IMG/VR virus record: IMGVR_UViG_3300050120_000105
Coordinates: 1-60,317 of that record
DNA from: a virus
DNA: 60,317 bases
Strand: one strand, 5' to 3'
Part shown: positions 43,030-57,473 of the stretch, piece by piece
Layout: every line of letters begins with the position of its first letter
How positions within the stretch are numbered: position 1 is the stretch's first letter
Notes under the pieces: generated by a model
Seen by the model: only the letters and a program-made list of their open reading frames with translations
Database searches by the model: none
What the model was told of the DNA's origin: nothing
Position numbers and translations under genes: made by a program

Positions 43030-43105
43030 TAAGTCTTGGGAGGAAACGCCCCTGAAGGGAGGCGAGCGACCACGATGGGGACCATGAGCGCCTATCTATA
43101 GACAG

Positions 43106-43864: not shown

Positions 43865-43878
43865 GTTCGGTTGCCCTT

Positions 43879-43914
43879 CTACGCGGCGCGAAGCCGCTAT
43901 GCGTAGCGCTGTGG
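43879..43914. repeat. Palindromic element type A
   Basis: 36 bp, CTACGCGGCGCGAAGCCGCT then ATGCGTAGCGCTGTGG, identical to 47387-47422. It lies between the replication gene stop and the NusG-like start, in the leader of the latter. Confidence 0.85.
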
Positions 43915-43919
43915 GTGAT

Positions 43920-45322: not shown

Positions 45323-45588
45323 GTCTTGCTTCCCGCCCCGACCGGCACGCACGCCGGCGCATCGAACGTCTCGACCTGCACCGCATCCGCCGATCGCCGC
45401 CAGGCCCTTCCGCCGCCGCCTTTCGGATGCAGCGTGACCTTGACCGCGCCGCAGACCTTGCAGGTGCGCTCGGTTTGCGGATAGCCGGAGGCGGACCTTG
45501 CCGCCGGCACCCATACCGGAGACTCGAAGGTGTGCTTCAAGGCCGGCATGTGGAGGACGTAGCCTTCGGGGATGGTGTTCATGTTCAT
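45319..45588 (-). CDS. Zinc-finger-like small protein (paralogue pair, member 2)
   Basis: 89 aa. YPQTERTCKVCGAVKVTLHP has a C-x2-C pair, followed by W and DAPACVPVG, the same order as the downstream paralogue. The ATG follows the type R flanking element C1 directly. Unknown function; DNA or RNA binding is plausible. Confidence 0.55.
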   Translation of the reverse strand: MNMNTIPEGYVLHMPALKHTFESPVWVPAARSASGYPQTERTCKVCGAVKVTLHPKGGGGRAWRRSADAVQVETFDAPACVPVGAGSKT

Positions 45589-45597
45589 TTGGTTTCG

Positions 45598-45651
45598 GGA
45601 TAGTTCAACTTTGATTCCTCGTTATTAGCATCGGCGGTGTCGGCTAAGTTC
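45598..45651. repeat. Cassette-flanking element C1 (downstream end of cassette 1)
   Basis: 54 bp. On the + strand it starts GGATAGTTCAACTTTGATTC and ends GTCGGCTAAGTTC. It is inverted relative to C2, so the two face each other across the GapR-like gene. The CTA within GGCTAAG is the gene's TAG stop on the - strand. Differs from C3 at only 3 positions. Confidence 0.85.
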
Positions 45652-46267
45652 CGGATGTTTCGGCTTCGACCTTCGCTTTCGGCTCGGACCGCATGCGTTT
45701 CGCCGCCGCCGCCTCTTCAGCGCGATCGGCTGCGCTCTTGACATGCGACTTGCGGATGCCGTCGATGTCTTCAGTCGGGAAGCGTCCAGTATCGTCGAAG
45801 TCTTCACGCTTGATCGGCTTGATCGTTGGGGCGGGCTCGTCGACTTCCTCCGCAACCGGATTGCCGTCAGTGTCGCGATAGACGCGAACCGGCAAGCCTC
45901 CGAGTTTGAGCACGATCTCGCCATGCGGCGGAACGATGCTTTTGAGAAATTCGACAGCCTCTTCGCGCGCGGCGAGATCGACGGCGAACTTGCCGAGCGC
46001 CATGAACAGCGGCGGTTCTTCGGCCATGCCGATCGCGTGCATATAGGTATCGAGCAGCGCTTCGGCCTGTTGGCGCTTGGCGGGATCTTCCGCACGAAGC
46101 GCGATCAGTTTTCGAATTGTCTTGGTATCGAAGCCGAGGGCCTTGCCGCGCTGGAAGATTTCCTTTTGTTGTTCGCTCAGTTGCTTCTTGCGGTCGATGA
46201 CGCCCTCGATCTCTTCGATCAGGCCGCGCAATTCCTTGCCGCTCTTGGTGCCCTTGCCGATGCTCAT
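45644..46267 (-). CDS. GapR-like (DUF2312) DNA-binding protein, cargo of cassette 1
   Basis: 207 aa. Residues about 10-80 (LRGLIEEIEGVIDRKKQLSE, then EIFQRGKALGFDTKTIRKLI ALRAEDP) match the GapR/DUF2312 coiled-coil fold, which grips overtwisted DNA in alphaproteobacteria. The ~125-residue C-terminal extension is not part of that family; its MALGKFAVDLAAREEAVEFL and PVRVYRDTDGNPVAEEV parts are unassigned. It may act on phage replication or chromosome structure. Bounded by inverted elements C2 and C1; the stop codon lies inside C1. Confidence 0.75.
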   Translation of the reverse strand: MSIGKGTKSGKELRGLIEEIEGVIDRKKQLSEQQKEIFQRGKALGFDTKTIRKLIALRAEDPAKRQQAEALLDTYMHAIGMAEEPPLFMALGKFAVDLAAREEAVEFLKSIVPPHGEIVLKLGGLPVRVYRDTDGNPVAEEVDEPAPTIKPIKREDFDDTGRFPTEDIDGIRKSHVKSAADRAEEAAAAKRMRSEPKAKVEAETSGT

Positions 46268-46281
46268 AACTTCATCCTTCA

Positions 46282-46333
46282 GAACTTAGCCGCTGCATTA
46301 CCGTTTCGTCGTGACGCTAAAGTTGTACTGTCC
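46282..46333. repeat. Cassette-flanking element C2 (upstream end of cassette 1)
   Basis: 52 bp. On the - strand: GGACAGTACAACTTTAGCGT...GCAGCGGCTAAGTTC, then TGAAGGATGAAGTT and the ATG at 46267. Differs from C4 at 2 positions. Confidence 0.85.
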
Positions 46334-46344
46334 ATATCTGTCTC

Positions 46345-46563
46345 CTACCGCGGCACGATCTTGTATCCAGCCTGATGCAGCCCATCCAACACAGCCCGCA
46401 CTGGAATGCTGCTTTCGCTTAGCAATCGTCCCGACCAACGATAAGGCACCATCGACAGCGCACACGCGATCACTTCATCCGGATCAAGCAACGGCCCGGC
46501 GCGAGGCTTGCGGGCTTCGAGCGGCATGCGGTCGATGCTGACGGGGAGCGTGGAGGGTTTCAT
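46345..46563 (-). CDS. Small phage protein, unknown
   Basis: 72 aa (MKPSTLPVSIDRMPLEARKP...). Has ACALSMVPYRWSGRLLSESS and VRAVLDGLHQAGYKIVPR, a helical, basic protein that could bind DNA. Coupled to the HNH gene upstream. Confidence 0.5.
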   Translation of the reverse strand: MKPSTLPVSIDRMPLEARKPRAGPLLDPDEVIACALSMVPYRWSGRLLSESSIPVRAVLDGLHQAGYKIVPR

Positions 46564-46871
46564 TCGGCGGGCTCCAGCAGATCAGCCATCCCTAGCGATT
46601 CCCGCTTCCGCTGCTTGATGCCACGCCGTCGTATCGGCGCGTCGTATTGATTGTGGCAGCGCTGGCACCACGCACGCAGGTTTTCATCCGAACAATTCTC
46701 GGGGACGTGATCGAGATGCGCGACCGTCAGCACAATCTTTGAACCGTCGCGGATGCTGTAATTCTGGGCTCCGCAATCCTCGCATTTGTTGCCCGCGCGC
46801 GCCCGAATTCGCAGACTGATTTGCTTCCAGTCTTTCGGGTATCGATCCTTATTTTCGGGGCGAATGGGCAT
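46560..46871 (-). CDS. HNH endonuclease-like protein
   Basis: 103 aa. NKCEDCGAQNYSIRDGSKIV then TVAHLDHVPENCSDENLRAW and CQRCHNQYDA: two CxxC zinc pairs around a beta-beta-alpha metal HNH core (A-H-x-D-H...N...H). Likely cleaves DNA in recombination, packaging or as a free-standing nuclease. Coupled at both ends. Confidence 0.8.
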   Translation of the reverse strand: MPIRPENKDRYPKDWKQISLRIRARAGNKCEDCGAQNYSIRDGSKIVLTVAHLDHVPENCSDENLRAWCQRCHNQYDAPIRRRGIKQRKRESLGMADLLEPAE

Positions 46872-47332
46872 TATACAGCCACTCCCGCGCGCATCTTGTC
46901 GAGCGCAGATCGCCCCGGCATAGGATCGCCGAAAAATCCTCCAGTCAGCCCGCGCTCACGGATGCGGTCGCGAAGCTCCTGGTCGAACACCAGCTTCGAT
47001 TTTGGCGTGAGCGCGATATGGCCGGCATAGTCGATCGTGACCGGACACGGCTTTCCCGGCAGCGGCGCCGGTTTCGGCTTTCGCCTGGGGAGATCCTCGA
47101 ATTCGATCATCAGCGCCACTTCGGCCTTGATGGCGAGCCGTCGCGCCTTGCGTTCGTCGACCCGGCGCTGGGTGCGGACTTCCGACATCATCGACTGGCA
47201 GGTCGAGCGCGGATGGCCGACCTTGCTCACGATATCGTCCCACGGGACGCGGCGACCTTCCAGCGAACAGGTGTCCACGGTGTCGGTCATGTATTTGAGC
47301 TGTTCCGCCGTCCATCGGTTTTCGTAACGCAT
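46871..47332 (-). CDS. SANT/Myb-like DNA-binding protein
   Basis: 153 aa. NRWTAEQLKYMTDTVDTCSL, VPWDDIVSKVGHPRSTCQSM has the W...W...helix spacing of a Myb/SANT repeat. The C-terminal half carries a basic Pro-rich linker (RRKPKPAPLPGKP). Role unknown; a regulator of the leftward operon is possible. Confidence 0.6.
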   Translation of the reverse strand: MRYENRWTAEQLKYMTDTVDTCSLEGRRVPWDDIVSKVGHPRSTCQSMMSEVRTQRRVDERKARRLAIKAEVALMIEFEDLPRRKPKPAPLPGKPCPVTIDYAGHIALTPKSKLVFDQELRDRIRERGLTGGFFGDPMPGRSALDKMRAGVAV

Positions 47333-47386
47333 TTACTTTTCCTTCCCTGTTATTTCGTTACGATCACCGTGCCCGGCGAAGCCTCT

Positions 47387-47422
47387 CTACGCGGCGCGAA
47401 GCCGCTATGCGTAGCGCTGTGG
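47387..47422. repeat. Palindromic element type A
   Basis: 36 bp identical to 43879-43914. It covers the last codons and the TAG stop of the 47405-47704 gene (PQRYA then stop), so the element has supplied that gene's end. Confidence 0.85.
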
Positions 47423-47704
47423 CGAAGACGGGTCGCGCAGCGCCATCGCGGCGCCATCGACCAGAAAATTCGCCAGTTGGTCTTTTGTGATTTCGAATTC
47501 GAAAAACACGCCGCCAGCCGATTGAACCTTGACCACGAAGGTATTGCGCAGCGGCTCGGTCAGGTAGAACAGCTTTGCCTTCGGGTAGGCGTAAGGCTCA
47601 CGCGGCGCGTGGGCGTTGGTGAGGATGGTCTTATTTGGACAGTTCAACTTTGATTCCTCGTTATGAGCAGCGGCGGTGTCGGCTAAGTTCTTCGTGCCGG
47701 TCAC
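47405..47704 (-). CDS. Small protein built over two repeats, unknown
   Basis: 99 aa from GTG 47704, which overlaps the methyltransferase stop (GTGA). Residues about 5-25 (NLADTAAAHNEESKLNCPNK) are the translation of flanking element C3 and the last residues come from the type A palindrome. The unique core is NTFVVKVQSAGGVFFEFEIT plus DQLANFLVDGAAMALRD. A TTG at about residue 20, preceded by GAGGA, is an alternative start that would skip the repeat. Confidence 0.5.
   Translation of the reverse strand: MTGTKNLADTAAAHNEESKLNCPNKTILTNAHAPREPYAYPKAKLFYLTEPLRNTFVVKVQSAGGVFFEFEITKDQLANFLVDGAAMALRDPSSPQRYA
47637..47690. repeat. Cassette-flanking element C3 (downstream end of cassette 2)
   Basis: 54 bp. 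+ strand: GGACAGTTCAACTTTGATTC...GTCGGCTAAGTTC. Inverted relative to C4, facing it across the methyltransferase gene. 51 of 54 positions equal C1. Confidence 0.85.
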
Positions 47705-48444
47705 AGTTCAAGTGCCTCTTGCTTTGCGGGCTTCGGCGGTTCGATGAACAAGTCAGGTCGCGCCAGCGCGTCGGTGATGCGGCGGCAGGCGATGTCGAAA
47801 TACTTGGGCTCAATCTCGATGCCGATGAACTTTCGGCCGAGCTTGACGGCGGCAACGCCGGTTGTGCCGGATCCCATGAAGGGGTCGAGGATGGTTTCGC
47901 CGGCATCGGAAAAAAGTTCTATCCACTCTCCGATAAGTTCGACCGGCTTTTGTGTGGGATGTTCGCCACGCGGTGACGGATAGGACCAGACAGCGCGCGA
48001 TCCTCCACCGTTCCAGCGTTTTGTTTCGTCTGCTCTATGGAAAATCGCAACGGCTTCCCATCCCGTCGCAGGCCTGTCGCCAGTAAACTGCGGCGCTCCG
48101 TTCGGCTTAACCCAAATTCCAAATCTCACCAGGGGAAGCCCGCTCGCCTCAGCGACTCCGATATGCCGCCAGTCGCATGTTAGGATGACCCACCTCCGCG
48201 CGATCGAAATCATCAACTCACACAATGTCAGAAAGTCTTCGCGGCTTAAGGATTCGAAATGGATACTGGCGACATTGTCCGCACCGCCGTTTTTTCCGAT
48301 ACGAGTTCGCGCGCCCGCATGAGTAACGGCGTCATAAGGCGGATCAGTCACCACGGCATCGACCTTGCCCAGTGTCGGCAGAATCTCCCGGCAGTCGCCG
48401 AGATAAAGCGTCACGCCTTCCGCCAGATGTTCGACACGATTCAT
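47701..48444 (-). CDS. DNA N4/N6 methyltransferase, cargo of cassette 2
   Basis: 247 aa. Catalytic motif IV DAVVTDPPYDAVTHAG (DPPY) comes near the N-terminus and the AdoMet motif ILDPFMGSGTTGVAAVKLGR near the C-terminus, the beta-class order used by CcrM-type and many phage enzymes. EHPTQKPVELIGEWIELFSD links the two. It should methylate adenine N6 or cytosine N4 and may protect phage DNA. Bounded by inverted elements C4 (5') and C3 (3'). Confidence 0.9.
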   Translation of the reverse strand: MNRVEHLAEGVTLYLGDCREILPTLGKVDAVVTDPPYDAVTHAGARTRIGKNGGADNVASIHFESLSREDFLTLCELMISIARRWVILTCDWRHIGVAEASGLPLVRFGIWVKPNGAPQFTGDRPATGWEAVAIFHRADETKRWNGGGSRAVWSYPSPRGEHPTQKPVELIGEWIELFSDAGETILDPFMGSGTTGVAAVKLGRKFIGIEIEPKYFDIACRRITDALARPDLFIEPPKPAKQEALEL

Positions 48445-48456
48445 TTTCTGCCTTCA

Positions 48457-48508
48457 GAACTTAGCCGCTGCCTTACCGTTTCGTCGTGACGCTAAAGTTG
48501 TACTATCC
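48457..48508. repeat. Cassette-flanking element C4 (upstream end of cassette 2)
   Basis: 52 bp. On the - strand GGATAGTACAACTTTAGCGT...GCAGCGGCTAAGTTC, then TGAAGGCAGAAA and ATG 48444. The element ends at the ribosome binding site. Confidence 0.85.
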
Positions 48509-48530
48509 ATATCCAACCTAACGGCGAGCA

Positions 48531-48755
48531 TCATTGCGGCCTCCGCATCTTGCAATCGCATAGCCATTCCATGTGGACGACGTACTGATCATGATGCGGC
48601 ATCTGGACTCGCGGCCGAAGGATGATCCAGCCGAGGCGCAGCCAATCCAGGGCCTGCCAGCGCGGCACGTAATGGATGATGCGGTCCTTCACCGAACGAA
48701 CTCTGCTGATGGCGAAATCTCTCGCGCATGTGCGTAGCTTTTTGCGGGAAGCCAT
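48531..48755 (-). CDS. Small phage protein, unknown
   Basis: 74 aa, basic and Trp-rich (MASRKKLRTCARDFAISRVR, VPRWQALDWLRLGWIILRPR). Overlaps the upstream frame by 67 bp, so one of the two starts may be later than drawn. No domain recognised. Confidence 0.4.
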   Translation of the reverse strand: MASRKKLRTCARDFAISRVRSVKDRIIHYVPRWQALDWLRLGWIILRPRVQMPHHDQYVVHMEWLCDCKMRRPQ

Positions 48756-48886
48756 TTATTGGACCGATTGAGCGGAATATGCCGCGAAGGTGCGCGCGGT
48801 CGCGATTTGGCGAATGTCGCTTCCGGCCAGCCCTTGATCCGATCGGCGTTGCGTCGCGCTCCGCGATATTCTGATGCGTGTTTCAT
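48689..48886 (-). CDS. Small basic protein, unknown
   Basis: 65 aa (MKHASEYRGARRNADRIKGW...). The ATG overlaps the methyltransferase-fusion stop (ATGA), which favours translation. Rich in Arg/Ser/Ala. Unknown. Confidence 0.45.
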   Translation of the reverse strand: MKHASEYRGARRNADRIKGWPEATFAKSRPRAPSRHIPLNRSNKWLPAKSYAHAREISPSAEFVR

Positions 48887-50010
48887 GCCGCTTCGTCCTC
48901 TGCGTTTGGCTGTGCCTTGCGCACGGGACTCGCCGTGAACCGGATCGCGTCGTCAGGCTTGGAAAGGGCTTCGCGGCAGCCAGGCGGTATCCAGAACGGC
49001 GCCAGTGGCTGGGCTCCCTTCAACCAGACCAGCCACATGTACGCGGTTGCGGTAGATCCCTCCGGGTCCCATCGCCCCTTGCAGAGATTGACGCGCTCGG
49101 CAAAGAACGCGATCAGCGTCGGCGGTGTGTCCTTGAAGATGCGTTCATAGCGACCGATCGAATCGAGCCATTGCACGCGCATGAACATCGCAATGCCGGT
49201 GCCGACCAGATCGAGCGCTTTCAGCACAAAGGCCTCGCCGAGATCGCCGAAGGGCGGGTTGGTGATGATCCAGTCCGCGCCTCGGAGTATTTCGGGACCG
49301 AGGAAGTCGACAACGCGGTCGCCATAACCATAATCGTGAATGTCGGAGGCGATCACCGAGCGGAAATATTCCCGCAACACTTCGGCCATGTGGCCATCGC
49401 CGCATGCCGGTTCCCACGCGTGCTGCCATTTGCAATGGCCGCGACGTTCGAGGTGCGGGAAAACATGTTCGATCAGCGCGCGCGTAGCCCAGGGCGGCGT
49501 CGGGAAGTGGTCTAGGCTGTCGTCGGGTTCCTGCCGTGAGCCCATGACGGCGCGGGCACTGTTGATGGCGGCCTCGCCGATCCGCATCAGATCCATGGTG
49601 ACGCGGGTCTGGCCGGCTTCCATTTCGTCGCGCCACGCGCCGACGCGCGCCTCAAACTCTGCCGGGGGCACCGCAGCCATCTTTTGGGCATGAGCCGAAA
49701 ACTTATGAGAGACGCCGATATCCTCCAGTTTGATCGGAGAAACCCCTTCCGGTTCGGCAGTGGTTTTGGCTGGAGGGCGGCCGCCCTTATGGAGCCCAAT
49801 GGTCTCTTTTTGCGCGGCAATCATCTGGCCGAATCGGCGCTCGGCGTGAAAACGAATCTCGGCGGCGTCGATTTCGAGGCTACGATCACCGGCGCGCCGA
49901 GCGTATTCCTTCATCGCCACGGCCTTGTCGAGGATCGACTTGACGTCGTCGACGGCCTTGGCCTCGGCGAGCATGATGCGGGCTTGATCGTAGGGGACGA
50001 GATCCGTCAT
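48883..50010 (-). CDS. DNA adenine methyltransferase with N-terminal ParB-like helical domain
   Basis: 375 aa. The first ~170 residues (QARIMLAEAKAVDDVKSILD, DAAEIRFHAERRFGQMIAAQ, LEDIGVSHKFSAHAQKMAAV) resemble a helical domain found in phage ParB-like proteins. The rest is a methyltransferase: motif I HAWEPACGDGHMAEVLREYF then ASDIHDYG, and motif IV ADWIITNPPFGDLGEAF (NPPF). Probably an N6-adenine enzyme with motif I before IV. It may modify phage DNA. It is the third methyltransferase of this genome. Confidence 0.8.
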   Translation of the reverse strand: MTDLVPYDQARIMLAEAKAVDDVKSILDKAVAMKEYARRAGDRSLEIDAAEIRFHAERRFGQMIAAQKETIGLHKGGRPPAKTTAEPEGVSPIKLEDIGVSHKFSAHAQKMAAVPPAEFEARVGAWRDEMEAGQTRVTMDLMRIGEAAINSARAVMGSRQEPDDSLDHFPTPPWATRALIEHVFPHLERRGHCKWQHAWEPACGDGHMAEVLREYFRSVIASDIHDYGYGDRVVDFLGPEILRGADWIITNPPFGDLGEAFVLKALDLVGTGIAMFMRVQWLDSIGRYERIFKDTPPTLIAFFAERVNLCKGRWDPEGSTATAYMWLVWLKGAQPLAPFWIPPGCREALSKPDDAIRFTASPVRKAQPNAEDEAA

Positions 50011-50036
50011 CTAGCGAACCTCGCGACAGGTCATTT

Positions 50037-50420
50037 TCAGCCGGGAGGCAGCGCCTCCCGATAGATTTCCTTGCCGGGCACCAAATCCCAGATGTTCCGG
50101 CAGAATGGTTCGCCGTGCGTCATGTCCATCAACCACTTCATGGTGACGCCACGATCCCAAAACCACTCGCCGCGCAGATGGCCTTCGCGCAATTGCTGAT
50201 GCACCAGCGGTTCGACATCCGGCGGAGCCGCGACGACCCCAATAAGTTCGAGTTTCCGCGCGCTGCCAACTTGGAGATCGGAAAGCCGGTGCCAATGGTC
50301 GCGTGAGTATCCGACCTTGATCGCGTCGGCCTCCGCATCGCGGATGAAGTAAACTGAGCCGAGTTCGGTTTCCGCGATCCAGAATTCTCGCAGAGAGACC
50401 AATCGAGTACGCAGGAACAT
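50037..50420 (-). CDS. GIY-YIG-like (T5orf172/Mug113) protein
   Basis: 127 aa. GSVYFIRDAEADAIKVGYSR DHWHRLSDLQVGSARKLELI GVV then LVHQQLREGHLRGEWFWDRG is the T5orf172 variant of the GIY-YIG nuclease fold (VYF ... IKVGYS ... R-L-x-x-LQ ... E ... GEWF). May nick or bind DNA. GAGGGTG lies upstream of the ATG. Confidence 0.8.
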   Translation of the reverse strand: MFLRTRLVSLREFWIAETELGSVYFIRDAEADAIKVGYSRDHWHRLSDLQVGSARKLELIGVVAAPPDVEPLVHQQLREGHLRGEWFWDRGVTMKWLMDMTHGEPFCRNIWDLVPGKEIYREALPPG

Positions 50421-50599
50421 AACACCCTCGCTGGCTGGCGATACAATCTAAGCGTTTAGCACAGAATGCGGCGATCTTCATGATTAAGGTTGCACTCATA
50501 GGTTTGCACTCGCTCGGGATAAGAACCGTTCGACGACGCACGCAAAACTCATTTACCGGGGACGCAACACAACGCGCAGAAACCGCTCAAAAAAAGCAG
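50421..50599. other. 179-bp gap in the leftward operon
   Basis: No gene seen. On the - strand a T7 run (50590-50596) follows no strong stem. TTGCAC/TTGCGT hexamers occur but without matching -10 boxes. A leftward promoter for the GIY-YIG and methyltransferase genes could lie here. Confidence 0.3.
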
Positions 50600-50746
50600 T
50601 CAGAAAGGACGTGAGGACCTTCGAAACCGGACGACGTTGGTCGCTTCGGACCGGCGATCGGCCCTGGTGCGCAGCACGTAGCGCAGCGCAAAGTAGGCGA
50701 TGGCGAGGATGGTGAAGGCGGCATAGCCGTAAAGGATCGTGGTCAT
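50600..50746 (-). CDS. 48-aa single-span membrane protein
   Basis: ATG overlaps the upstream stop (ATGA). MTTILYGYAAFTILAIAYFA then LRYVLRTRADRRSEATNV: one N-terminal membrane helix and a basic cytoplasmic tail. Small proteins of this shape in early operons can act on host membranes or block superinfection; function unproven. Confidence 0.5.
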   Translation of the reverse strand: MTTILYGYAAFTILAIAYFALRYVLRTRADRRSEATNVVRFRRSSRPF

Positions 50747-51045
50747 GCGGCCTCCGCGAAACGCTCTGAGGCTTCAAGAATCGACTGGATCAAGCGCCAG
50801 CCGCTTTCAGATGGTCTAAAGAACGGCCCGCGCGGAGATTCTCCGGGCACTTTCCTGTTCCAGATTTCGATCAGTTCACGCCGCCACAGCGGCACCACTG
50901 CGCGGCGCGAAGCCGCTATGCGCAGCGCCGTTGCCTCTCGCTGATCGCGAGTCAGGGTAATCTGACCGCCATTGGAGCAGCAGATCGCGAGATGTTTCAA
51001 TGTCGCGATCTGCCGGTTTGAGAGACGTTCGCCTTTCACAGGCAT
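50743..51045 (-). CDS. Small phage protein carrying a type B palindrome
   Basis: 100 aa. LSNRQIATLKHLAICCSNGG QITLTRDQ, then ATALRIAASRRAVV (encoded by the palindromic element), then PLWRRELIEIWNRKVPGESP and PFFRPSESGWRLIQSILEAS. The flanking parts read like a winged-helix-type protein that was interrupted in frame by the 33-bp element. Unknown function. Confidence 0.55.
   Translation of the reverse strand: MPVKGERLSNRQIATLKHLAICCSNGGQITLTRDQREATALRIAASRRAVVPLWRRELIEIWNRKVPGESPRGPFFRPSESGWRLIQSILEASERFAEAA
50898..50930. repeat. Palindromic element type B inside a coding region
   Basis: CTGCGCGGCGCGAAGCCGCT then ATGCGCAGCGCCG, 33 bp, read in frame by the 50743-51045 gene as part of ATALRIAASRRA. 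Flanked by a small GGCA/TGCC inverted repeat. Confidence 0.8.
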
Positions 51046-51602
51046 TCTCCGATAATTTCACGCTTGAGGGCGGCAACCTTGTCTTCGTCCGTTTGAACCT
51101 CGCCGATCAATGCAACCAGCCACCAGCGTTCGCCTTTCCATTTCGGCGGAATGAACGTCGCGTGCAGACCTTGCGCGGTGCAGATCCGCAGCGGTCCCTT
51201 GATGGTTTCGATGGTGCCCGGGCCAACGGGATCGTTCTTTCCACCATTCGCCGCGCGACCATTCTTGTCGGAACGCCAGAAGGCAATCATCGCGCCTTCT
51301 TGCTGCAGCTCCGCAAAACGCTTTTGCTGTTGCTCTGGCATCTTCCTTGCAAAATTCGGAATCGTGGCCAACCAATATTCCTTGGAGCCGGAGCCGTAGC
51401 CGTAGCCGGAGCCGTCGCCGGAGCCGGAGCCGGAGCCGGAGCCGTCGCCGGAGCCGTAGCCGTCGCCGGAGCCGTAGCCGTAGCCGTAGCCGGAGCCGGA
51501 GCCGTAGCCGTAGCCGGAGCCGTCGCCGGAGCCGGAGCCGTCGCCGGAGCCGTTCAAAAATGAGTGCGGGACTTCGCCCCGCACGAGTCTCGCTTCGCTC
51601 AT
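51036..51602 (-). CDS. Gly-Ser/Tyr/Asp repeat protein with DUF7666-like C-terminus
   Basis: 188 aa from ATG 51602, which overlaps the upstream stop (ATGA). After MSEARLVRGEVPHSFLNG comes a tract of about 26 Gly-X dipeptides with X = Ser, Tyr or Asp (residues 18-69), then a folded domain KEYWLATIPNFARKMPEQQQ ... RICTAQGLHATFIPPKW ... ALIGEVQTDEDKVAALKREI. The last part recalls the DUF7666 pattern. The repeat may be a flexible or phase-separating linker, or a length-variable tract. Function unknown. Confidence 0.65.
   Translation of the reverse strand: MSEARLVRGEVPHSFLNGSGDGSGSGDGSGYGYGSGSGYGYGYGSGDGYGSGDGSGSGSGSGDGSGYGYGSGSKEYWLATIPNFARKMPEQQQKRFAELQQEGAMIAFWRSDKNGRAANGGKNDPVGPGTIETIKGPLRICTAQGLHATFIPPKWKGERWWLVALIGEVQTDEDKVAALKREIIGECL
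51395..51551. repeat. Hexanucleotide tandem array (GGC-NNC codon pairs)
   Basis: About 26 units of 6 bp; on the coding strand GGC alternates with TCC, TAC or GAC, so only the two middle bases vary (Ser, Tyr, Asp). Unit number can change without frameshift. The array is open in several frames, which creates long Arg/Ser and Arg/Leu shadow frames. Confidence 0.9.
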
Positions 51603-51925
51603 TTCCATGGTGCGCTTTCCCATGCTGCGACAGCGGCAGTCGTGACCTCGGCAACCGAGGTAATGTCGCGAAGCTCGATATCGGCGGCCGGCCCGACGCG
51701 CGCGCCTTTGACCGGCCCCATGTTGGCGAGGCCCATGAAGCCCTTGTTTTCTGCCGGCCAATAGATGCAGTTACGCGCCGCGCGAAGCTTGATGGTCTCA
51801 CCGTCGGTATCGAGGGCGTAACCAAAGAACACGCCTCTGTGACTTGTTGTAACTAGAACTGCCCTCTCTTCTTTCTTCAAATGTGCCGCCAAGTGTTCCT
51901 CCCGTTTGATTAAAGATGAGCCCAT
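51599..51925 (-). CDS. DUF6948-like phage protein
   Basis: 108 aa. RAVLVTTSHRGVFFGYALDT, AARNCIYWPAENKGFMGLAN and DIELRDITSVAEVTTAAVAA W match a small phage family (DUF6948 as I recall it) of unknown function. GGAGAGC precedes the ATG. Overlaps the HNH gene by 16 bp. Confidence 0.65.
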   Translation of the reverse strand: MGSSLIKREEHLAAHLKKEERAVLVTTSHRGVFFGYALDTDGETIKLRAARNCIYWPAENKGFMGLANMGPVKGARVGPAADIELRDITSVAEVTTAAVAAWESAPWK

Positions 51926-52539
51926 GCTCTCCGTGCCCGGATCGCAGAGACGGTTTCCATGCTGATCAAGTATTGTGAAGCGATTTCGCGACGCGTCCGC
52001 TTGTCAGACCTGATGGCCACGACCTGTTCAGGCTGCAGTTTTGCGGTATGAACGCGCTCACCTCTGTTGTGACGATCCTTCGCAATGCAATCGCGATTGT
52101 TGTCGACCCTGGTACCGGCAAAGAGATGGCTTGGCCGACAACAGGCTGGGTTATCGCAGGAGTGACAGGCGCAGAGACCTGCGGCCAACTTCCCTCTTGT
52201 GATTAGATATGCGGCCTGATGCGCTTGCCGTGGAAATCCTTTCTCAGAATAGCGTGCGTAGCCATCCTTTGAGCGAGCCGAAGGATATTCCCAACAACCG
52301 GCCTTGCCAGCTTGATCAAGTAAAAACGCAGCCATTCTCGGATGGCGACGACCATAACAGCCGCAGGATTTGGTGTGCCCGCTCCGTAGACCGGACGTAA
52401 GGGCAATCACCACTACCGCGCCGCAGTCGCATAGACATTTCCAGCGCTGCTGTGCGTGGACGTTTGAATCTAGCCGCTCAATTACGAGCAATCGTGCAAA
52501 ACGCTGCCCTACAAGATCAAACCGCTGCCCGCTGGTCAT
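51910..52539 (-). CDS. HNH homing-type endonuclease
   Basis: 209 aa. N-terminal zinc-finger-like module (RWKCLCDCGAVVVIALTSGL, HTKSCGC), then an HNH_3-type core: LAAGLCACHSCDNPACCRPS HLFAGTRVDNNRDCIAKDR, and a C-terminal helix-turn-helix (REIASQYLISMETVSAIRAR). This three-part layout is typical of free-standing phage HNH endonucleases that cut specific sites and spread by repair. AGGAG lies 7 nt before the ATG. Confidence 0.85.
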   Translation of the reverse strand: MTSGQRFDLVGQRFARLLVIERLDSNVHAQQRWKCLCDCGAVVVIALTSGLRSGHTKSCGCYGRRHPRMAAFLLDQAGKAGCWEYPSARSKDGYARYSEKGFPRQAHQAAYLITRGKLAAGLCACHSCDNPACCRPSHLFAGTRVDNNRDCIAKDRHNRGERVHTAKLQPEQVVAIRSDKRTRREIASQYLISMETVSAIRARRAWAHL

Positions 52540-52548
52540 GCGGCGCTC

Positions 52549-52806
52549 CTATCGTCGGTCAGGCAGCCAAAGATTGATGACGGCTTGGATAGTGCGCGCG
52601 GTAGGCTCCTGCTCGCCTGAAATCTGATAAGCGGCGGCGCGTACCGAGCAACCGACAAGGGCCGCGAGTTCTTCTGCGGTTTTGTTCGGCCACATCCCTT
52701 TGCAAGCTTTACCGAACCACGAACTGCAAATTCTTGCATCGCCCTGCAGGATGTTTCGCTCGATTTTCGCGGCGCCCGCGATCTCGCGCTCGTAAACCGT
52801 ACGCAT
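52549..52806 (-). CDS. HTH regulator, CII-like position
   Basis: 85 aa from ATG 52806, which has AGGGG 8 nt upstream. MWPNKTAEELAALVGCSVRA AAYQISGEQEPTARTIQAVI shows a helix-turn-helix. Second gene of the leftward operon after the Cro-like gene, the position of early regulators. The 150 bp between it and the Cro-like stop contain no clear leftward gene. Confidence 0.6.
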   Translation of the reverse strand: MRTVYEREIAGAAKIERNILQGDARICSSWFGKACKGMWPNKTAEELAALVGCSVRAAAYQISGEQEPTARTIQAVINLWLPDRR

Positions 52807-52928
52807 GAACAAACCCCTGATACGCAATGCAACAAATCAACTGCCGTTAACCCAACTGAGAGAAAAATTTTCCGTGACACGAAACCGCCATACGGACCAT
52901 GCTGCGGCAAAACGCGCAGGGGGCGGAA

Positions 52929-53231
52929 ATGGGGAAGATTATTCGATTTCCGGGGCATCAGGCGCGCACCTCGGTTTCCAGGGGATACAAATCGGGGCGC
53001 AGTTCATGCCTGGAGACGCCGGAGACGCGCTCGACCACCAGCACGCGAAGCGGAGGAACCTCATTCCATTGTGAAACGGCCTGCGCAGTCACACCGACGG
53101 CCCGCGCAAACTTGGCCTGGCCGCCGACATTTTCGACCGCTCGTTTGAGGGCTTCTTTCTTGTCATCCATAGTCGTCACCTCAAGCATGGCTTTTACCTC
53201 AAAGTCAAGTTTTGCTTCATTGTTTGCCTAA
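52929..53231 (+). CDS. Antisense ORF across the Cro-like gene (doubtful)
   Basis: ATG preceded by AGGGGGCGG. Encodes MGKIIRFPGHQARTSVSRGY and about 80 more residues, fully overlapping the Cro-like gene on the other strand and ending 22 bp before the repressor. I recall similar MGKxxRFP-starting antisense frames in other alphaproteobacterial prophages. It may be a real small protein, an N-terminal leader only, or an artefact of conservation of the opposite strand. Confidence 0.2.
   Translation: MGKIIRFPGHQARTSVSRGYKSGRSSCLETPETRSTTSTRSGGTSFHCETACAVTPTARANLAWPPTFSTARLRASFLSSIVVTSSMAFTSKSSFASLFA
52958..53170 (-). CDS. Cro/YdaS-like repressor
   Basis: 70 aa from ATG 53170 (GAGGTG 7 nt upstream decides the start over 53188). 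KEALKRAVENVGGQAKFARA VGVTAQAVSQWNEVPPLRVL VVERVSGVSRHELRPDLYP is the YdaS/Cro fold: a helix-turn-helix with Q-x-x-V-S-x-W in the recognition helix. First gene of the leftward operon and divergent from the CI-like gene, so it should antagonise it. Confidence 0.85.
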   Translation of the reverse strand: MDDKKEALKRAVENVGGQAKFARAVGVTAQAVSQWNEVPPLRVLVVERVSGVSRHELRPDLYPLETEVRA

Positions 53232-53247
53232 AGCCGGGCTTTATAAT
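53220..53247 (+). promoter_or_regulatory. Repressor promoter, leaderless transcript predicted
   Basis: -35 TTGTTT (53220-53225), 16-bp spacer, perfect -10 TATAAT (53242-53247). The expected transcript start, about 7 nt after the -10, is the A of ATG 53254, and no good ribosome binding site is present. This mirrors the leaderless lambda cI message from PRM. Confidence 0.6.
53229..53243. promoter_or_regulatory. Operator candidate, 15-bp palindrome
   Basis: TAAAGCCGGGCTTTA is a perfect dyad around a central G. It spans the -35/-10 spacer and touches the -10 box, so a dimeric repressor bound there would shut the rightward promoter. CCTAAAG (53227) and CTTTAGG (53258) form an outer inverted pair. 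Confidence 0.55.
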
Positions 53248-53253
53248 GCGGAA

Positions 53254-53574
53254 ATGACTTTAGGAAATCGCATCAAGGCGGCCCGCGAGCGCCTTCGGCC
53301 AAAGCCGACTCAGGCCGAGATAGGTGCCCACTTCGGCGTCACCGACAAAGCTGTCTCCGGGTGGGAACGAGACGAGGCAATCCCGGAACTGGATAAGATC
53401 GCTAAGTTGTCGAGATTACTCAGGATTCCAGTTATTTGGCTGCTCGAAGGGACGGACGATCCACCTCCCCCCGATTCGCTGGAAAAGGACATCGAACAGC
53501 TCCAGCCCCATGAACGCGCCGTGGTGCGCACCATGGTCGACGCTTTCAGCAAAAACCGGGATACCGTCGCCTAA
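53254..53574 (+). CDS. CI-like XRE repressor, short form
   Basis: 106 aa. MTLGNRIKAARERLRPKPTQ AEIGAHFGVTDKAVSGWERD is an XRE helix-turn-helix (VTDKAVSGWE in the recognition helix). There is no LexA-type autocleavage domain; only a short acidic tail (LEKDIEQLQPHERAVVRTMV) follows, so SOS induction by self-cleavage is not expected. Divergent from the Cro-like gene over an 83-bp control region. Confidence 0.85.
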   Translation: MTLGNRIKAARERLRPKPTQAEIGAHFGVTDKAVSGWERDEAIPELDKIAKLSRLLRIPVIWLLEGTDDPPPPDSLEKDIEQLQPHERAVVRTMVDAFSKNRDTVA

Positions 53575-53605
53575 TCCACAGCTTTCGTGGCCGGCCAGAT
53601 ATTTT

Positions 53606-53636
53606 TTGATATTTGACTAAAGCAACAAGCTATGCT
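53606..53636 (+). promoter_or_regulatory. Weak promoter candidate for the rightward early genes
   Basis: TTGATA (53606-53611), 19-bp spacer, TATGCT (53631-53636). Lies between the repressor stop and ATG 53672. Spacer is long, so this is tentative. Confidence 0.3.
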
Positions 53637-53671
53637 TGAGTGCTCCCACACCAACAGGGAGCCGCCACCCC

Positions 53672-53998
53672 ATGACAACCACCTTCCAGACAGAACCCCG
53701 CCCTTCCCCGCTCTACCTCGTCCTCTGTGGCCAGCACATCGACGAATACGCAGCCGAGCGCGACGTCAACGACATGGATCGCGAGACAACGATCCGCGAT
53801 ATCGCAGCCGGCGAATTCGAAACGCTCTCGCGCGTGATCGAGATCGGCACCGGCGCCGATGTCACCAAGGACTTCGCCAGACAGGTCATGACGATCTGGG
53901 CTGGGCGAGGCGAGACGCTTTCTTACCGTCAATATGAATTCGTCGAGATCCACGTCGGTACGCGCGCGGCGCGGTCGTTTCTGCGGAGGGCTGCGTGA
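53672..53998 (+). CDS. Early protein, unknown
   Basis: 108 aa from ATG 53672. LYLVLCGQHIDEYAAERDVN DMDRETTIRDIAAGEFETLS, AGRGETLSYRQYEFVEIHVG. Small alpha/beta protein of a kind common in rhizobial phages; no function assigned. Its stop overlaps the next start (TGATG). Confidence 0.6.
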   Translation: MTTTFQTEPRPSPLYLVLCGQHIDEYAAERDVNDMDRETTIRDIAAGEFETLSRVIEIGTGADVTKDFARQVMTIWAGRGETLSYRQYEFVEIHVGTRAARSFLRRAA

Positions 53999-54255
53999 TG
54001 GTCGCGATCGGCGGAAAGCCTCGCAAGGCAAAGCTTCCCTCGCAGCCGCAAGTCGTCGTGCAGCGCGCCGCTTTCACCAACGAATTCGCGCTGTTCAGTG
54101 CCGACGACAAAGGCATGACGATCATCACATGGATCGGCGACCCGAACGCCGCGACCAAATTCAATTCGAAATATGAAGCCAAATCCCGCGTGCGCGACAT
54201 GCATGACGTTCCGGACTCGCGCGTGTTCAAGGTTTTGCAGAAGGAGACTGTGTGA
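53998..54255 (+). CDS. Early protein, unknown
   Basis: 85 aa (MVAIGGKPRKAKLPSQPQVV...). Basic N-terminus then a beta-rich part (FALFSADDKGMTIITWIGDP). Overlaps both neighbours by TGATG-type junctions. Unknown. Confidence 0.55.
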   Translation: MVAIGGKPRKAKLPSQPQVVVQRAAFTNEFALFSADDKGMTIITWIGDPNAATKFNSKYEAKSRVRDMHDVPDSRVFKVLQKETV

Positions 54256-55034
54256 TGATGATGTTAGACCGCGCTGAAATCCCCGCAACCGACCGCCTTG
54301 TCAGCACTGCCGACAACCAGCCCTCGCGCATCGACTTCGCCGTCGAAGCCTATGACGAACTGCGCACGTACCTGAAATCGCATCCCGTTGTTATGAGCCA
54401 GGACGATGCCCAGGCCGGCGCCGCCGTAAACGAGCGCACGCTTGTCGCTTTGAACGAAGCCCGCGCCGAACGCGAGACCAAAACCCGCCCGTTCCGCGAC
54501 CGGCTGAATGCGATCTTCGATGCCTACGCGCTGGTCAAGGACAAGGGCACGCTGGAAACCGCCCGCGGCGAGCTGCGCAAGCGGCTGACAAAATACGCCA
54601 ACGATATCGAGGCCAAGCGCATCGCCGAGGTCGAGCGGTTGCGCAAGGAAGCCGAAGAAGCCGAACGGATTGCCCGCGAAGCCGAAGCCGCCGAACGCGA
54701 GGCGATCGACGATGCCGAACAGGGCGTCGAGAGCGACGTCGGCGAGGCAATCCAGCAGGCGGATCAGGCGTTCACGGACTTCCGGCGCGCGGACAAGACG
54801 GCTGCGATCGCCGCCAAGAACGTGCCGGTGCGGTTCAAGAGCGTGCTGGGAGGCAATTCGCGCGGCATGCGGACGGTCGAGGTTTTGGTGATCGAGGATG
54901 TCGCCAAGGTGATCAGGATTTTAGGGATGACCGACAAGATCAGGGACGCGATTTTGTCCAGCGCCCGCGACTACCGCCGCGAATACGACGAGCTTCCCGC
55001 CGGCATCACCGCAACCTTTGAGAGGACTTTGTAA
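54255..55034 (+). CDS. Coiled-coil early protein, possibly replication/recombination-linked
   Basis: 259 aa from ATG 54255. A long charged coiled coil (RLTKYANDIEAKRIAEVERL, KEAEEAERIAREAEAAEREA) sits between an N-terminal alpha domain and a C-terminal part (VRFKSVLGGNSRGMRTVEVL, VAKVIRILGMTDKIRDAILS). The layout recalls Gp157/siphovirus early proteins of unknown function. It precedes an OB-fold-like gene by 0 bp, so the two may work together on DNA. Confidence 0.5.
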   Translation: MMMLDRAEIPATDRLVSTADNQPSRIDFAVEAYDELRTYLKSHPVVMSQDDAQAGAAVNERTLVALNEARAERETKTRPFRDRLNAIFDAYALVKDKGTLETARGELRKRLTKYANDIEAKRIAEVERLRKEAEEAERIAREAEAAEREAIDDAEQGVESDVGEAIQQADQAFTDFRRADKTAAIAAKNVPVRFKSVLGGNSRGMRTVEVLVIEDVAKVIRILGMTDKIRDAILSSARDYRREYDELPAGITATFERTL

Positions 55035-55529
55035 ATGAACACGTCAGCAGCACTTCAACAGCCGCGCTTTGAGCAAGGCACCATCACCGTCCAGAACATC
55101 TATCCCTCGAAAGGCCAAGGCAAGTCGGCCCACATCAAGGATTCGGACGGTATGTTGTTCGGTATCTGGCCGGACAAGCTTGGCCTCGTCCAGGTCGGAG
55201 GAACTTACGAGATCGAGTTTTCCGCCAGCACCAAGAACGGCACCACGTACCGCGATATCAAGCAACTGCACATGGTGGAAAAGCCGCAGCCGCAGCCGGC
55301 GCGTTCATTGTCGTCGGCCGCGGCGCCGGCGCCGCAGACAGAGAAGCCGCAGAACGGCGGATACTACCGGCCGACAGCGCCGCAGGATTCCGAGCGCATG
55401 TTCTGCTGCAGTACGCTCAACGCCTTCATCCAGACCGGCCGCGTTGAATGTCATCGCGAGCATCTGACGATAGCGATCAACGAGCTGCGCGCGGCCTATG
55501 CGGCGACGTTCGGCGCCGACGACCACTGA
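55035..55529 (+). CDS. OB-fold-like protein, ssDNA-binding candidate
   Basis: 164 aa. FEQGTITVQNIYPSKGQGKS, LFGIWPDKLGLVQVGGTYEI EFSASTKNGTTYRDIKQLHM reads as a five-stranded OB barrel. A Pro/Ala linker and a C-terminal helical domain (SERMFCCSTLNAFIQTGRVE) follow. An SSB role fits the neighbourhood but aromatic DNA-binding residues are few, so this is tentative. Confidence 0.5.
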   Translation: MNTSAALQQPRFEQGTITVQNIYPSKGQGKSAHIKDSDGMLFGIWPDKLGLVQVGGTYEIEFSASTKNGTTYRDIKQLHMVEKPQPQPARSLSSAAAPAPQTEKPQNGGYYRPTAPQDSERMFCCSTLNAFIQTGRVECHREHLTIAINELRAAYAATFGADDH

Positions 55530-55538
55530 CACCCGTTA

Positions 55539-55591
55539 CCTCGCCAAAGGCGTAGCGGCTCCATGGCGAGGGAGGCGGCGGCGGGTTTTTA
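55539..55591 (+). terminator. Hairpin plus T-run after the OB-fold gene
   Basis: CCTCGCC and GGCGAGG (7 bp, 19-nt loop, 55539-55571) are followed by a G-rich stretch and TTTTT (55587-55591). The distance to the T-run is long for a classical terminator, so partial attenuation is more likely. Confidence 0.35.
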
Positions 55592-55639
55592 AGCATCCTC
55601 GTCGCCGCCAACTAATTCAAAGGCATCACAGGGGACACC

Positions 55640-55834
55640 ATGAACATCCAACTCAAACCGGAAACCCGCCGTTTCATCGAGGATTTTGTCGCGCACGAAA
55701 TCACCACGCTGACCGCACTCGATCCGTTCGGCATCGACGATCCCTGCCCGGGAAGCCCGGACGGCCATTACCAGTTGTGGGACGGGCCGCGCACGCTGGT
55801 ATGCGCGCATTGCGCGAAGGTGCTGTGGTCATGA
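55640..55834 (+). CDS. Small protein with C-terminal CxxC, unknown
   Basis: 64 aa (MNIQLKPETRRFIEDFVAHE...). Ends with LVCAHCAKVLW, a CxxC knuckle, and has DPCPGSPDGHYQLWDG in the middle. Stop overlaps the next start (ATGA). Confidence 0.5.
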   Translation: MNIQLKPETRRFIEDFVAHEITTLTALDPFGIDDPCPGSPDGHYQLWDGPRTLVCAHCAKVLWS

Positions 55835-56064
55835 ACTCCTTCCTGATCGACGGCCCGCTGATGTCCACCTTCGATCGCCGCAAGGCGATGATCGAGCGCA
55901 TGGCGAAAGACCTGGTCAAATTCGACGCCGCGCAGAACGAAGCCGACGCGATCCGATCGCTGATGGCGCGGGGCTACTCGCCGTTCGCCGTGCTGCGCTA
56001 TGTCGACGATGCGCGGCAGGTGGCGTTCCAGAGCATTGTTGCGAGGGAGATGGCGAAGTCGTGA
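55831..56064 (+). CDS. Small helical protein, unknown
   Basis: 77 aa from ATG 55831. FDRRKAMIERMAKDLVKFDA, MARGYSPFAVLRYVDDARQV. The end IVAREMAKS resembles VIVAREMMKAG in the composite protein at 57937, so they share a module. Ends 12 bp before cassette element C5. Confidence 0.5.
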   Translation: MNSFLIDGPLMSTFDRRKAMIERMAKDLVKFDAAQNEADAIRSLMARGYSPFAVLRYVDDARQVAFQSIVAREMAKS

Positions 56065-56076
56065 GGCCAGAGGGAT

Positions 56077-56129
56077 GGATAGTACAACTTGAGCGTCACG
56101 GTTTAAACACCAGCGCAGCGGCTAAGTTC
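56077..56129. repeat. Cassette-flanking element C5 (upstream end of cassette 3)
   Basis: 53 bp on the + strand: GGATAGTACAACTTGAGCGT...GCAGCGGCTAAGTTC, followed by a ribosome binding site (AGGAG) and ATG 56153. Confidence 0.85.
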
Positions 56130-56152
56130 GATCCGCAGCTAGGAGCTACAAG

Positions 56153-56329
56153 ATGGGAAAGCGCGCGTTGATCGACATCGCCGGCGAACTCAAAGGCGAG
56201 ACCGACAAAGCTTTTCGAATTTTCGACGGCAAAACGACTGAATGGGTGCCGAAGTCGCAAGTCGAGCAGAACCCTGACGGCACTTTCACAATGCCAGAAT
56301 GGCTGGCACAGGATAAAGGATTCATCTGA
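56153..56329 (+). CDS. Small phage protein, cargo of cassette 3
   Basis: 58 aa. MGKRALIDIAGELKGETDKA, TEWVPKSQVEQNPDGTFTMP EWLAQDKGFI: a family of small phage proteins whose members share a W-(V/L)-P-x-SQ-(V/I)-E ... T-x-P-E-WLA-x-x-KG end. Function unknown. AGGAG 8 nt upstream. Overlaps the Acb2-like start (TGATG); its 3' end recurs at 2906-2965. Confidence 0.6.
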   Translation: MGKRALIDIAGELKGETDKAFRIFDGKTTEWVPKSQVEQNPDGTFTMPEWLAQDKGFI

Positions 56330-56574
56330 TGGCACACGTTTACGAAGGACAACCGGATGGCCGGCAGGCCGACACGGCGATTGAAGTCAGCCGCTTTCGC
56401 CCGAAGTATCGAGCGTTGAGCAACGAAGAAAAGTCGCTGCACGACGCAATCAAGGACGAAGCCGCCGTGCTCGAAACCTTGTTCGCCAAGGTCAAGCCAG
56501 GTCGCTACAACTCGCTAGCAATCACGTCGCTCGAACAGTCAATTATGTGGATCGTCAAGGAATTGACGTCGTAA
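56329..56574 (+). CDS. acb2: Acb2/Tad1-like cyclic-nucleotide sponge, anti-CBASS/Thoeris candidate, cargo of cassette 3
   Basis: 81 aa. FRPKYRALSNEEKSLHDAIK DEAAVLETLFAKVKPGRYNS LAITSLEQSIMWIVKELTS follows the Acb2/Tad1 pattern: Y-R-x-LS-x-xE ... IK ... L ... R ... A-x-T-x-LE ... MW-x-VK-x-LT. Known members form oligomers that trap cyclic oligonucleotide or ADPR-type signals and so block CBASS or Thoeris defence. The preceding 15 residues are variable. It sits with the 58-aa gene inside inverted elements C5 and C6. Confidence 0.75.
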   Translation: MAHVYEGQPDGRQADTAIEVSRFRPKYRALSNEEKSLHDAIKDEAAVLETLFAKVKPGRYNSLAITSLEQSIMWIVKELTS

Positions 56575-56590
56575 CCAAACGCGGCGCTTA

Positions 56591-56642
56591 GAACTTAGCC
56601 GCTGAGTCGGTGAAGCGTCGTCGCGTTTGAGTTGTACTATCC
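56591..56642. repeat. Cassette-flanking element C6 (downstream end of cassette 3)
   Basis: 52 bp. On the + strand it reads GAACTTAGCCGCTGAGTCGG...GAGTTGTACTATCC, the inverted orientation of C5. It begins 17 bp after the Acb2-like stop. Confidence 0.85.
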
Positions 56643-56656
56643 AAATCGGACTTCCA

Positions 56657-57094
56657 ATGATCAGACCGCAACGCATCGTTCACGATTCGAAACCCGGCGA
56701 TTTACTCAAACGCGCGACCGCGCCGACCGCGACAGCGCGAACCTCCGACCATGGAGATGCCGATTATTTGGCCCTTATCAGGCAAATGCCCTGCCTTTCC
56801 TGCGGCATGGAACTGTCTGAGGCCGCTCACCTACGTCTTTCAAGTGCAGCGTATGGCAAGGCGAGCGGCCTCGGGAAGAAGCCTCATGACAAGTGGGCGC
56901 TTTCATTATGCAGCCAATGCCATCGCCTGGCGAAAACAGCCCAACATAACCGCAACGAAGCCGAGTTTTGGGCAAGCCTGGGCATCAATCCCCTCAGTTG
57001 CGCCGTTGAACTTTATGCGGCGCGCGGCGATCCGGTCTCGATGCGGATGATCGTCGTGCTGACGATTGCGACGCGTTGGAAACGGGATGGATAG
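56657..57094 (+). CDS. DUF968/Ref-like HNH protein
   Basis: 145 aa from ATG 56657. ALIRQMPCLSCGMELSEAAH LRLS, GLGKKPHDKWALSLCSQCHR LAKTAQHNRNEAEFW: Cys pairs and A-H...H-R...H-N residues of the Ref/DUF968 HNH-type nucleases used in phage recombination. The stop (TAG) lies inside the GGATAG of element C7. It starts 15 bp after element C6, so it is a gene between two cassettes. Confidence 0.75.
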   Translation: MIRPQRIVHDSKPGDLLKRATAPTATARTSDHGDADYLALIRQMPCLSCGMELSEAAHLRLSSAAYGKASGLGKKPHDKWALSLCSQCHRLAKTAQHNRNEAEFWASLGINPLSCAVELYAARGDPVSMRMIVVLTIATRWKRDG

Positions 57095-57142
57095 TACAAC
57101 TTGAGCGTGAGTGACTGAGTATCGGCGATAGAGGCTAAGTTC
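57089..57142. repeat. Cassette-flanking element C7 (upstream end of cassette 4)
   Basis: 54 bp on the + strand: GGATAGTACAACTTGAGCGT...GAGGCTAAGTTC. The first 20 bp equal C5; the middle differs. AAAAAGGAAACG gives the ribosome binding site before ATG 57170. Confidence 0.85.
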
Positions 57143-57169
57143 GGAAGACAGCAAAAAGGAAACGACACG

Positions 57170-57412
57170 ATGAAAATGACGTTACAGAGCACGACCAAGA
57201 TCGTCGAATTGAGATCACGCAGTGGTGGGGTGATGCAGGCCAGGATATGGGAGGGCACAACCGAGAATGGTGTGCCGGTCCACGCCTTCATCACACGGGT
57301 CGCGTGCCACAAGGATGAGGATAACAGCGAGCTTGAGCGCGACCTTCGCGAGCACGTCGCGCCATCCGATAATATTGGCAAAGCCTATGATTTACGCTTC
57401 TTCATCGACTAG
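57170..57412 (+). CDS. Small phage protein, cargo of cassette 4
   Basis: 80 aa. MKMTLQSTTKIVELRSRSGG, ARIWEGTTENGVPVHAFITR, ELERDLREHVAPSDNIGKAY: a small beta protein of a family I recall in alphaproteobacterial phages. Function unknown. It is the only gene inside inverted elements C7 and C8, so a counter-defence role is possible by analogy with cassette 3. Confidence 0.6.
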   Translation: MKMTLQSTTKIVELRSRSGGVMQARIWEGTTENGVPVHAFITRVACHKDEDNSELERDLREHVAPSDNIGKAYDLRFFID

Positions 57413-57421
57413 CCGGAGGAC

Positions 57422-57473
57422 GAACTTAGCCGCTCAGTCAGTGCAGCGTCGTGTCGGTAAAGTTGAACTATCC
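57422..57473. repeat. Cassette-flanking element C8 (downstream end of cassette 4)
   Basis: 52 bp. + strand GAACTTAGCCGCTCAGTCAG...AAGTTGAACTATCC, inverted relative to C7. It begins 9 bp after the stop of the cargo gene. Confidence 0.85.

Follow-up and report, generated by a model that had tools for sequence, protein, structure and literature searches.

Four sets of one or two small genes in a soil phage genome are each enclosed by an inverted pair of 52-54 bp elements, and the same frame surrounds other genes in seven further phages. The genome is IMG/VR virus record IMGVR_UViG_3300050120_000105, analysed over its whole length of 60,317 bp and referred to here as the window, or W. Genomic comparison shows that the genes held between near-identical elements can differ completely, and that the framed units are gained at gene-gene junctions of phages. 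Our preferred account, to which we give slightly less than an even chance, is that the units are mobile single-gene cassettes belonging to phages of Bradyrhizobium and presumably of related bacteria, recognised in trans by a sequence-specific factor.

Inverted elements around small genes

The window has a 134-bp terminal repeat (98% identity), and a second record, G006, is 99.998% identical to it across 42 kb and spans its ends. The pattern GGCTAAGTTC has exactly eight matches in W, four per strand, and none when reversed; allowing one mismatch yields a single further match to the element pattern. No shuffle reached the count of the outer motif, and the element counts are far above shuffled expectation. 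A sequence-only reading of this DNA had placed eight elements in four inverted pairs, and all eight positions and the pairing were confirmed. Each pair surrounds a ribosome binding site (RBS) and one or two small open reading frames (ORFs). Within a pair, U denotes the copy on the 5' side of this cargo and D that on the 3' side; the cassettes of W are numbered C1-C4. The cargo functions first suggested from the letters are upheld by the protein-family matches listed here (PF10073, PF01555, PF24729), as is the location of the stop codon of the GapR-like gene, a TAG, within the D element of C1. PF24729 is the family of phage anti-CBASS/anti-Thoeris sponges.

46282..46333, minus strand: U of cassette 1, 5' of the GapR-like gene (profile 46.7 bits)
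45644..46267, minus strand: cargo 1, GapR-like protein, 207 aa (GapR DNA-binding domain PF10073, 72.8 bits, cut-off 22.6)
45598..45651, plus strand: D of cassette 1 (profile 41.3 bits)
48457..48508, minus strand: U of cassette 2, 50/52 identical to U1 (profile match, alignment)
47701..48444, minus strand: cargo 2, DNA methyltransferase, 247 aa (N6_N4_Mtase PF01555, 101.9 bits; phrog_67)
47637..47690, plus strand: D of cassette 2, 51/54 identical to D1 (profile match, alignment)
56077..56129, plus strand: U of cassette 3 (profile 54.7 bits)
56153..56329, plus strand: cargo 3a, 58-aa protein (phrog_8389)
56329..56574, plus strand: cargo 3b, 81-aa Acb2/Tad1 hairpin-domain protein (Acb2_Tad1_hairpin PF24729, 49 bits, cut-off 27)
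56591..56642, minus strand: D of cassette 3 (profile 42.3 bits)
57089..57142, plus strand: U of cassette 4 (profile 39.0 bits)
57170..57412, plus strand: cargo 4, 80-aa protein (no match in family and homologue searches)
57422..57473, minus strand: D of cassette 4 (profile 45.3 bits)
56657..57094, plus strand: HNH/DUF968 gene between C3 and C4, neighbour not cargo (family matches)
47405..47632, minus strand: neighbour downstream of cassette 2, own start missing (comparison with homologue L045)
45319..45588, minus strand: neighbour, start 10 bp past D1 (comparison with Bradyrhizobium prophages L178 and L179)
L019 6814-6845 (G003 26814-26845): truncated U of cassette G003b, outer block missing
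L027 959-990 (G007 40959-40990): truncated U of G007, outer block missing

The search of phage and prophage databases that the sequence-only reading had proposed was run on IMG/VR, GTDB, and phage and plasmid collections (INPHARED, PLSDB). When 2.9 million viral contigs were scanned, the element turned up in seven besides W, G006 among them; 84,980 GTDB species genomes gave one match, Bradyrhizobium sp. URHD0069, which is prophage G004; and relaxed scans added one more phage, G009 (via L035), their other new matches (L036-L038 and L142-L164) being due to chance. The resulting catalogue holds 13 cassettes, every one an inverted pair, in eight phages: W, G001, G002, G003 (with three), G004, G005, G007 and G009. 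A sequence profile built from 23 elements recovers just those 23 from the element-bearing contigs, with E-values to 4e-15. The three partners without a profile match are truncated (U of G003b and of G007) or degenerate (D of G009) copies, and the profile search of these contigs therefore reveals no solo element. In 272 Bradyrhizobium genomes the profile found nothing further that was real; neither there nor in the GTDB genomes does any element lie in host DNA outside prophage G004, and INPHARED and PLSDB hold no known phage or plasmid relative with elements. A host repeat resembling repetitive extragenic palindromic elements was rejected, the pattern being present in just 1/272 Bradyrhizobium genomes and the profile adding nothing real. 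Directly past the degenerate D of G009 lies a 38-bp exact direct repeat, TCAAGGACTCCACCCATGGCC... (L121, reverse-complement ~5614 and ~5856), which starts two consecutive genes, one gene seemingly inserted with its start region duplicated.

Alignment of the elements reveals two conserved blocks, an outer GGATAGTWCAACTT and an inner GGCTAAGTWC, the latter often after GCAGC; all 15 invariant columns fall within the blocks, and the middle is variable. The blocks resemble each other (GGATA-GTWC, GGCTAAGTWC), hence, as we read it, each end would contain a direct repeat; the outer block is itself near-dyad symmetric (AGTTCAACT). Across phages, U and D form two separate types: the nearest neighbour is of the same type for 22/23 elements (p=0.0002), and for 20/23 when the variable middle alone is compared (p=0.0016). 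As sequence types, U and D of one cassette cannot stand in for each other.

Between the ends there is only the RBS and ORF(s): U lies 11-27 nt from the ATG, the last stop codon 2-15 nt ahead of D in the cases scored, or within D (C1, G003c, G007), and end-to-end spacing of the paired elements is 256-766 bp. Cargo reads from U to D in 13/13 cassettes, this single orientation ruling out DNA inversion (phase variation). The outer ends are equally compact. The preceding gene takes its stop codon from U in C4 (the TAG of GGATAG ends the HNH/DUF968 gene), G002, G004 and G009, and from the truncated U in G003b and G007; a convergent gene in G005 takes its stop codon from the D end; and the gene following C2 lacks a start codon of its own, so must begin inside the cassette. 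With such ends an insertion may be tolerated, since the preceding gene often gets its stop codon from U, and D can abut the next start codon.

Change of cargo and gain of cassettes

Change of cargo is indicated by two pairs of cassettes whose ends nearly match. C1 and C2 of W hold a GapR-like and a methyltransferase gene respectively between ends identical at 50/52 (U) and 51/54 (D) positions, the values counted in the sequence-only reading; identity extends only 5 and 6 bp past U and 0 bp past D. Cassettes G003b and G007, from mostly unrelated phages, have 48/51 positions of D and 32/32 of the truncated 32-bp U in common; cargo and flanks are unrelated, and identity extends 0-1 bp past the ends. 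Their upstream genes differ yet join the truncated U at the same base, both ending ELHH*, the four codons and stop encoded by the truncated U. For both pairs taken together, homology runs out within 0-6 bp of the element ends. Cargo genes also occur unframed: 3a has an element-free homologue in phage G009 (79% DNA identity over 160 bp), and the GapR-like cargo has one in G005 with no element nearby.

Gain is seen at several loci. The G004 cassette, 361 bp long and lying at L017 5255-5615 (NZ_JNIJ01000008.1 region), breaks a gene near codon 16; past D stands another start of that gene family, this one complete, and an exact 17-bp repeat is found 2 bp ahead of U and 35 bp beyond D. Another 89 Bradyrhizobium genomes contain the family, and in the 19 inspected its starts are uninterrupted. 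At the C3 locus, L186 has the same upstream gene and HNH gene (72% identity) flanking 1.3 kb of other ORFs and no element; its DNA homology to W ends at 56064, the upstream gene's stop codon, and restarts at 56695, C3 occupying the slot. In L186 and L187 the HNH gene is not followed by C4. At the C1 locus, prophages L178 and L179 have overlapping (ATGA) homologues of W 46871-47332 and 45319-45588; between these two genes W has an HNH gene, a 72-aa gene and C1. Close relatives of gene 46871-47332 were not found in IMG/VR. The homologue (L045) of the gene without its own start after C2 has an ATG and no element.

It is because relatives lack C1, C3, C4 and the G004 cassette, and because two cargo homologues are element-free, that we take cassettes to be gained and cargo to change between conserved ends. 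The sequence-only reading had proposed that cargo is exchanged between fixed ends, to be checked by whether relatives lack or swap the enclosed genes. Gain or loss is supported by the relatives without cassettes, and exchange by the unrelated cargo of C1/C2 and, independently, of G003b/G007; however, these genomes reveal no recombinase within the cassettes, no case where a cassette left or entered precisely at its outer ends, and no same-locus swap between sister phages. That reading had named non-inverted pairs, or elements without any link to gain or exchange, as evidence against itself; all pairs in the catalogue are inverted, and the link is present.

What the ends may be

On our preferred account, a cassette would run from U as its left end, through an RBS and one or two ORFs, to D as its right end, the ends being mutually inverted and each presenting two short recognition blocks, outer and inner, in the same orientation. 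A sequence-specific DNA-recombining factor provided in trans, by another phage gene or by the host, would recognise the paired ends, and cargo would be exchanged through recombination at or within them. Conservation of two blocks round a drifting middle points to sequence-specific recognition, beyond plain homology arms; strict inverted pairing, with homology ending at the ends, favours recombination sites over operators; and the three together argue for a trans-acting recombining factor. The more specific proposition, a new phage-confined mobile unit with polar bipartite inverted ends, moved by a site-specific recombinase in trans with neither target-site duplication (TSD) nor single-strand folding, strikes us as rather doubtful.

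Several observations weigh against the preferred account. A TSD abutting both ends is seen in 0/13 cassettes; direct repeats exceed those of shuffles in just 2/13 (17 bp in G004, 13 bp in G003c), and these are displaced, the right copy lying 35 bp past D in G004 and 17 bp past it in G003c. No recombinase is encoded in the cassettes and none is common to the eight phages, DDE and serine recombinases not having been searched by family; the check for an enzyme acting on the ends, suggested by the sequence-only reading, gave no shared candidate. The tyrosine integrase family (PF00589) is absent from W and present in five other phages; ERF occurs only in G002, RecT only in G004, and W has neither. 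The catalogue contains neither a pair of elements without cargo nor an excised junction. Finally, the element-free loci differ from W by more than the cassette: two more genes at C1, the 1.3 kb of other ORFs at C3. A role for the HNH gene was rejected: homologues lie near the cassettes of W, G002, G003 and G009 and were not found in G004, G005 or G007.

Two other explanations are serious rivals. In the main one the ends would be regulatory frames, U and D of each accessory gene (moron) being bound by a phage or host protein, for example for prophage silencing or insulation, with the cassettes moving by mosaicism. Conserved blocks with a variable middle would suit protein binding, the blocks serving as operators, and the near-dyad outer block, the single small accessory genes carried as cargo, and the NusG-like proteins encoded by W, G001 and G009 are in keeping with this. 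We nevertheless hold it fairly unlikely: no site is ever solo, and each has an inverted partner after the stop codon; end homology ceases at the element ends while cargo differs; and no shared regulator was identified, NusG being present in only 3/8 phages. Nor does the consensus scan, which covered sigma-70-like sites and leaves alphaproteobacterial or phage promoters outside its reach, find a promoter at any element; terminator-like sites at the elements are below the shuffle mean, with none at any U and a single match, in D3, no more than shuffles give. The other rival, which we rate unlikely, makes the ends homology arms: like boundary or PeSL sequences, their ~50 bp would let phage annealases or RecA swap cargo, and a dedicated recombinase would not be needed. 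The 50/52 and 51/54 identities exceed the ~30 bp minimum of Red beta, and phage mosaicism is chiefly homology-driven (PMC3945230); the right junction of G004 falls within a homologous gene start, and G002 and G004 encode ERF and RecT respectively. Homology arms leave unexplained, however, the two-block conservation in distant phages, the strict pairing and the arrival at element-free loci, and W itself lacks ERF and RecT.

The ends of Tn7 and Mu are inverted and carry tandem recognition blocks. The cassettes might likewise be passenger transposons, cut and pasted by the DDE transposase of a parent element, and the blocks and the want of an internal transposase agree with this; given the absence of TSDs in 13/13 and of any parent element with these ends in the 84,980 GTDB genomes, PLSDB or INPHARED, with none outside phages, we think it improbable. 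That there is no unit at all, merely chance similarity and ordinary mosaicism, might be argued from the other short patches (92-94% identity) that G003 and G007 have in common; the counts far above shuffles, the E-values and the inverted pairs throughout unrelated phages make it highly improbable. Explanations at the RNA level were also rejected. Folding z-scores of the elements centre near 0 on both strands, only D of G001 being clearly better than shuffles, which disposes of a hairpin or attC-like element; no element has an Rfam match to a known RNA family; and pairing of U with D in RNA (an mRNA handle or circular RNA) is not reflected in the ends, which mismatch 2.2 times within a cassette vs 2.1 between cassettes, the differences within cassettes being mostly uncompensated.

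Other features of the window and known systems

W carries at least three DNA methyltransferase genes in all, two of them outside the cassettes (48883-50010, minus strand, and 738-1505, plus strand; phrog_799 and phrog_363). Its NusG-like protein (43292-44029, minus strand; PF02357, 31 bits), encoded next to a replication-initiation-like gene, is possibly a phage antiterminator; G001 and G009 carry NusG-like genes too. At 42979-43067 (minus strand), adjoining the small terminase region, is an Rfam match to the alphaproteobacterial suhB/mmgR small RNA family (43.1 bits, gathering 41). A second, unrelated repeat family, a G+C-rich palindrome (GCGGCGCGAAGCCGC in a 42-nt unit, CTACGC...GCGTAG), has six copies at 12291, 12312, 35402, 43883, 47391 and 50902, some at gene ends, and among the other element-bearing phages was found only in the near-identical G006. 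A run of GCCGGA/GCCGTA/GCCGTC repeats (51363-51584) in ORF 51036-51761 encodes a Gly-Ser/Gly-Tyr repeat protein, and a terminator-like hairpin follows this ORF.

Mobile regulatory cassettes termed PeSL have reportedly been described in T4-type phages (by Arbiol in 2010 and Comeau in 2014; PMC4503421). They too are conserved intergenic sequences beside interchangeable small phage genes, but comprise an early promoter and a stem-loop in one orientation, whereas here each cargo has an inverted U/D pair, the elements have no stable stem, and the scan for sigma-70-like promoters gave no site at an element. Mobile insertion cassettes (MICs) and gene-carrying miniature inverted-repeat transposable elements (MITEs) likewise have inverted ends round passenger genes and no transposase inside; the present cassettes differ by having no TSDs, by the absence of any insertion sequence with matching ends that could be their parent, and by their confinement to phage genomes. 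Integron cassettes resemble them in setting the RBS and ORF tight against a recombination site, within which stop codons may fall, but have one attC where these have two inverted ends; the present cassettes show neither folding signal nor tandem array and no IntI, and W has no PF00589 match. The start-associated sequences (SAS) of cluster K mycobacteriophages, 13-bp GGGATAGGAGCCC, stand at starts only, and the inverted repeats of the extended form (ESAS), of 17 bp with spacers usually of 4-13 bp, stand upstream of the start (PMC3203893). Like the present elements they are repeats beside small non-structural phage genes (PMC3203893); their sequence is different, and here D follows the stop codons, with ends 256-766 bp apart round a gene. 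Morons too are extra genes between neighbours which lie side by side in relatives, as seen for C1 (together with two further genes) and for C4; a moron has by definition a promoter and terminator of its own, and the consensus scan found none at these cassettes.

The cassettes depart from PeSL, MICs/MITEs, integron cassettes and SAS/ESAS in one or more of the defining features tested for each, and open-licence papers yielded no description of such an arrangement; the view of the sequence-only reading, that no named system of this form is known, agrees with this, no family tested being a fit. In effect the cassettes seem to us closest to PeSL or integron cassettes, while belonging to neither.

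How phages gain single accessory genes, such as methyltransferases, anti-defence proteins and small proteins of unknown function, is an open question; generalised mosaicism accounts for exchange of modules, but not for a standard frame repeated round one gene. The arrangement reported here has the look of a route, so far undescribed, by which phages gather and exchange single genes. Its ends offer a searchable handle on accessory genes and, since the frames of W enclose an Acb2/Tad1-type protein and a methyltransferase, may help to find further counter-defence genes.

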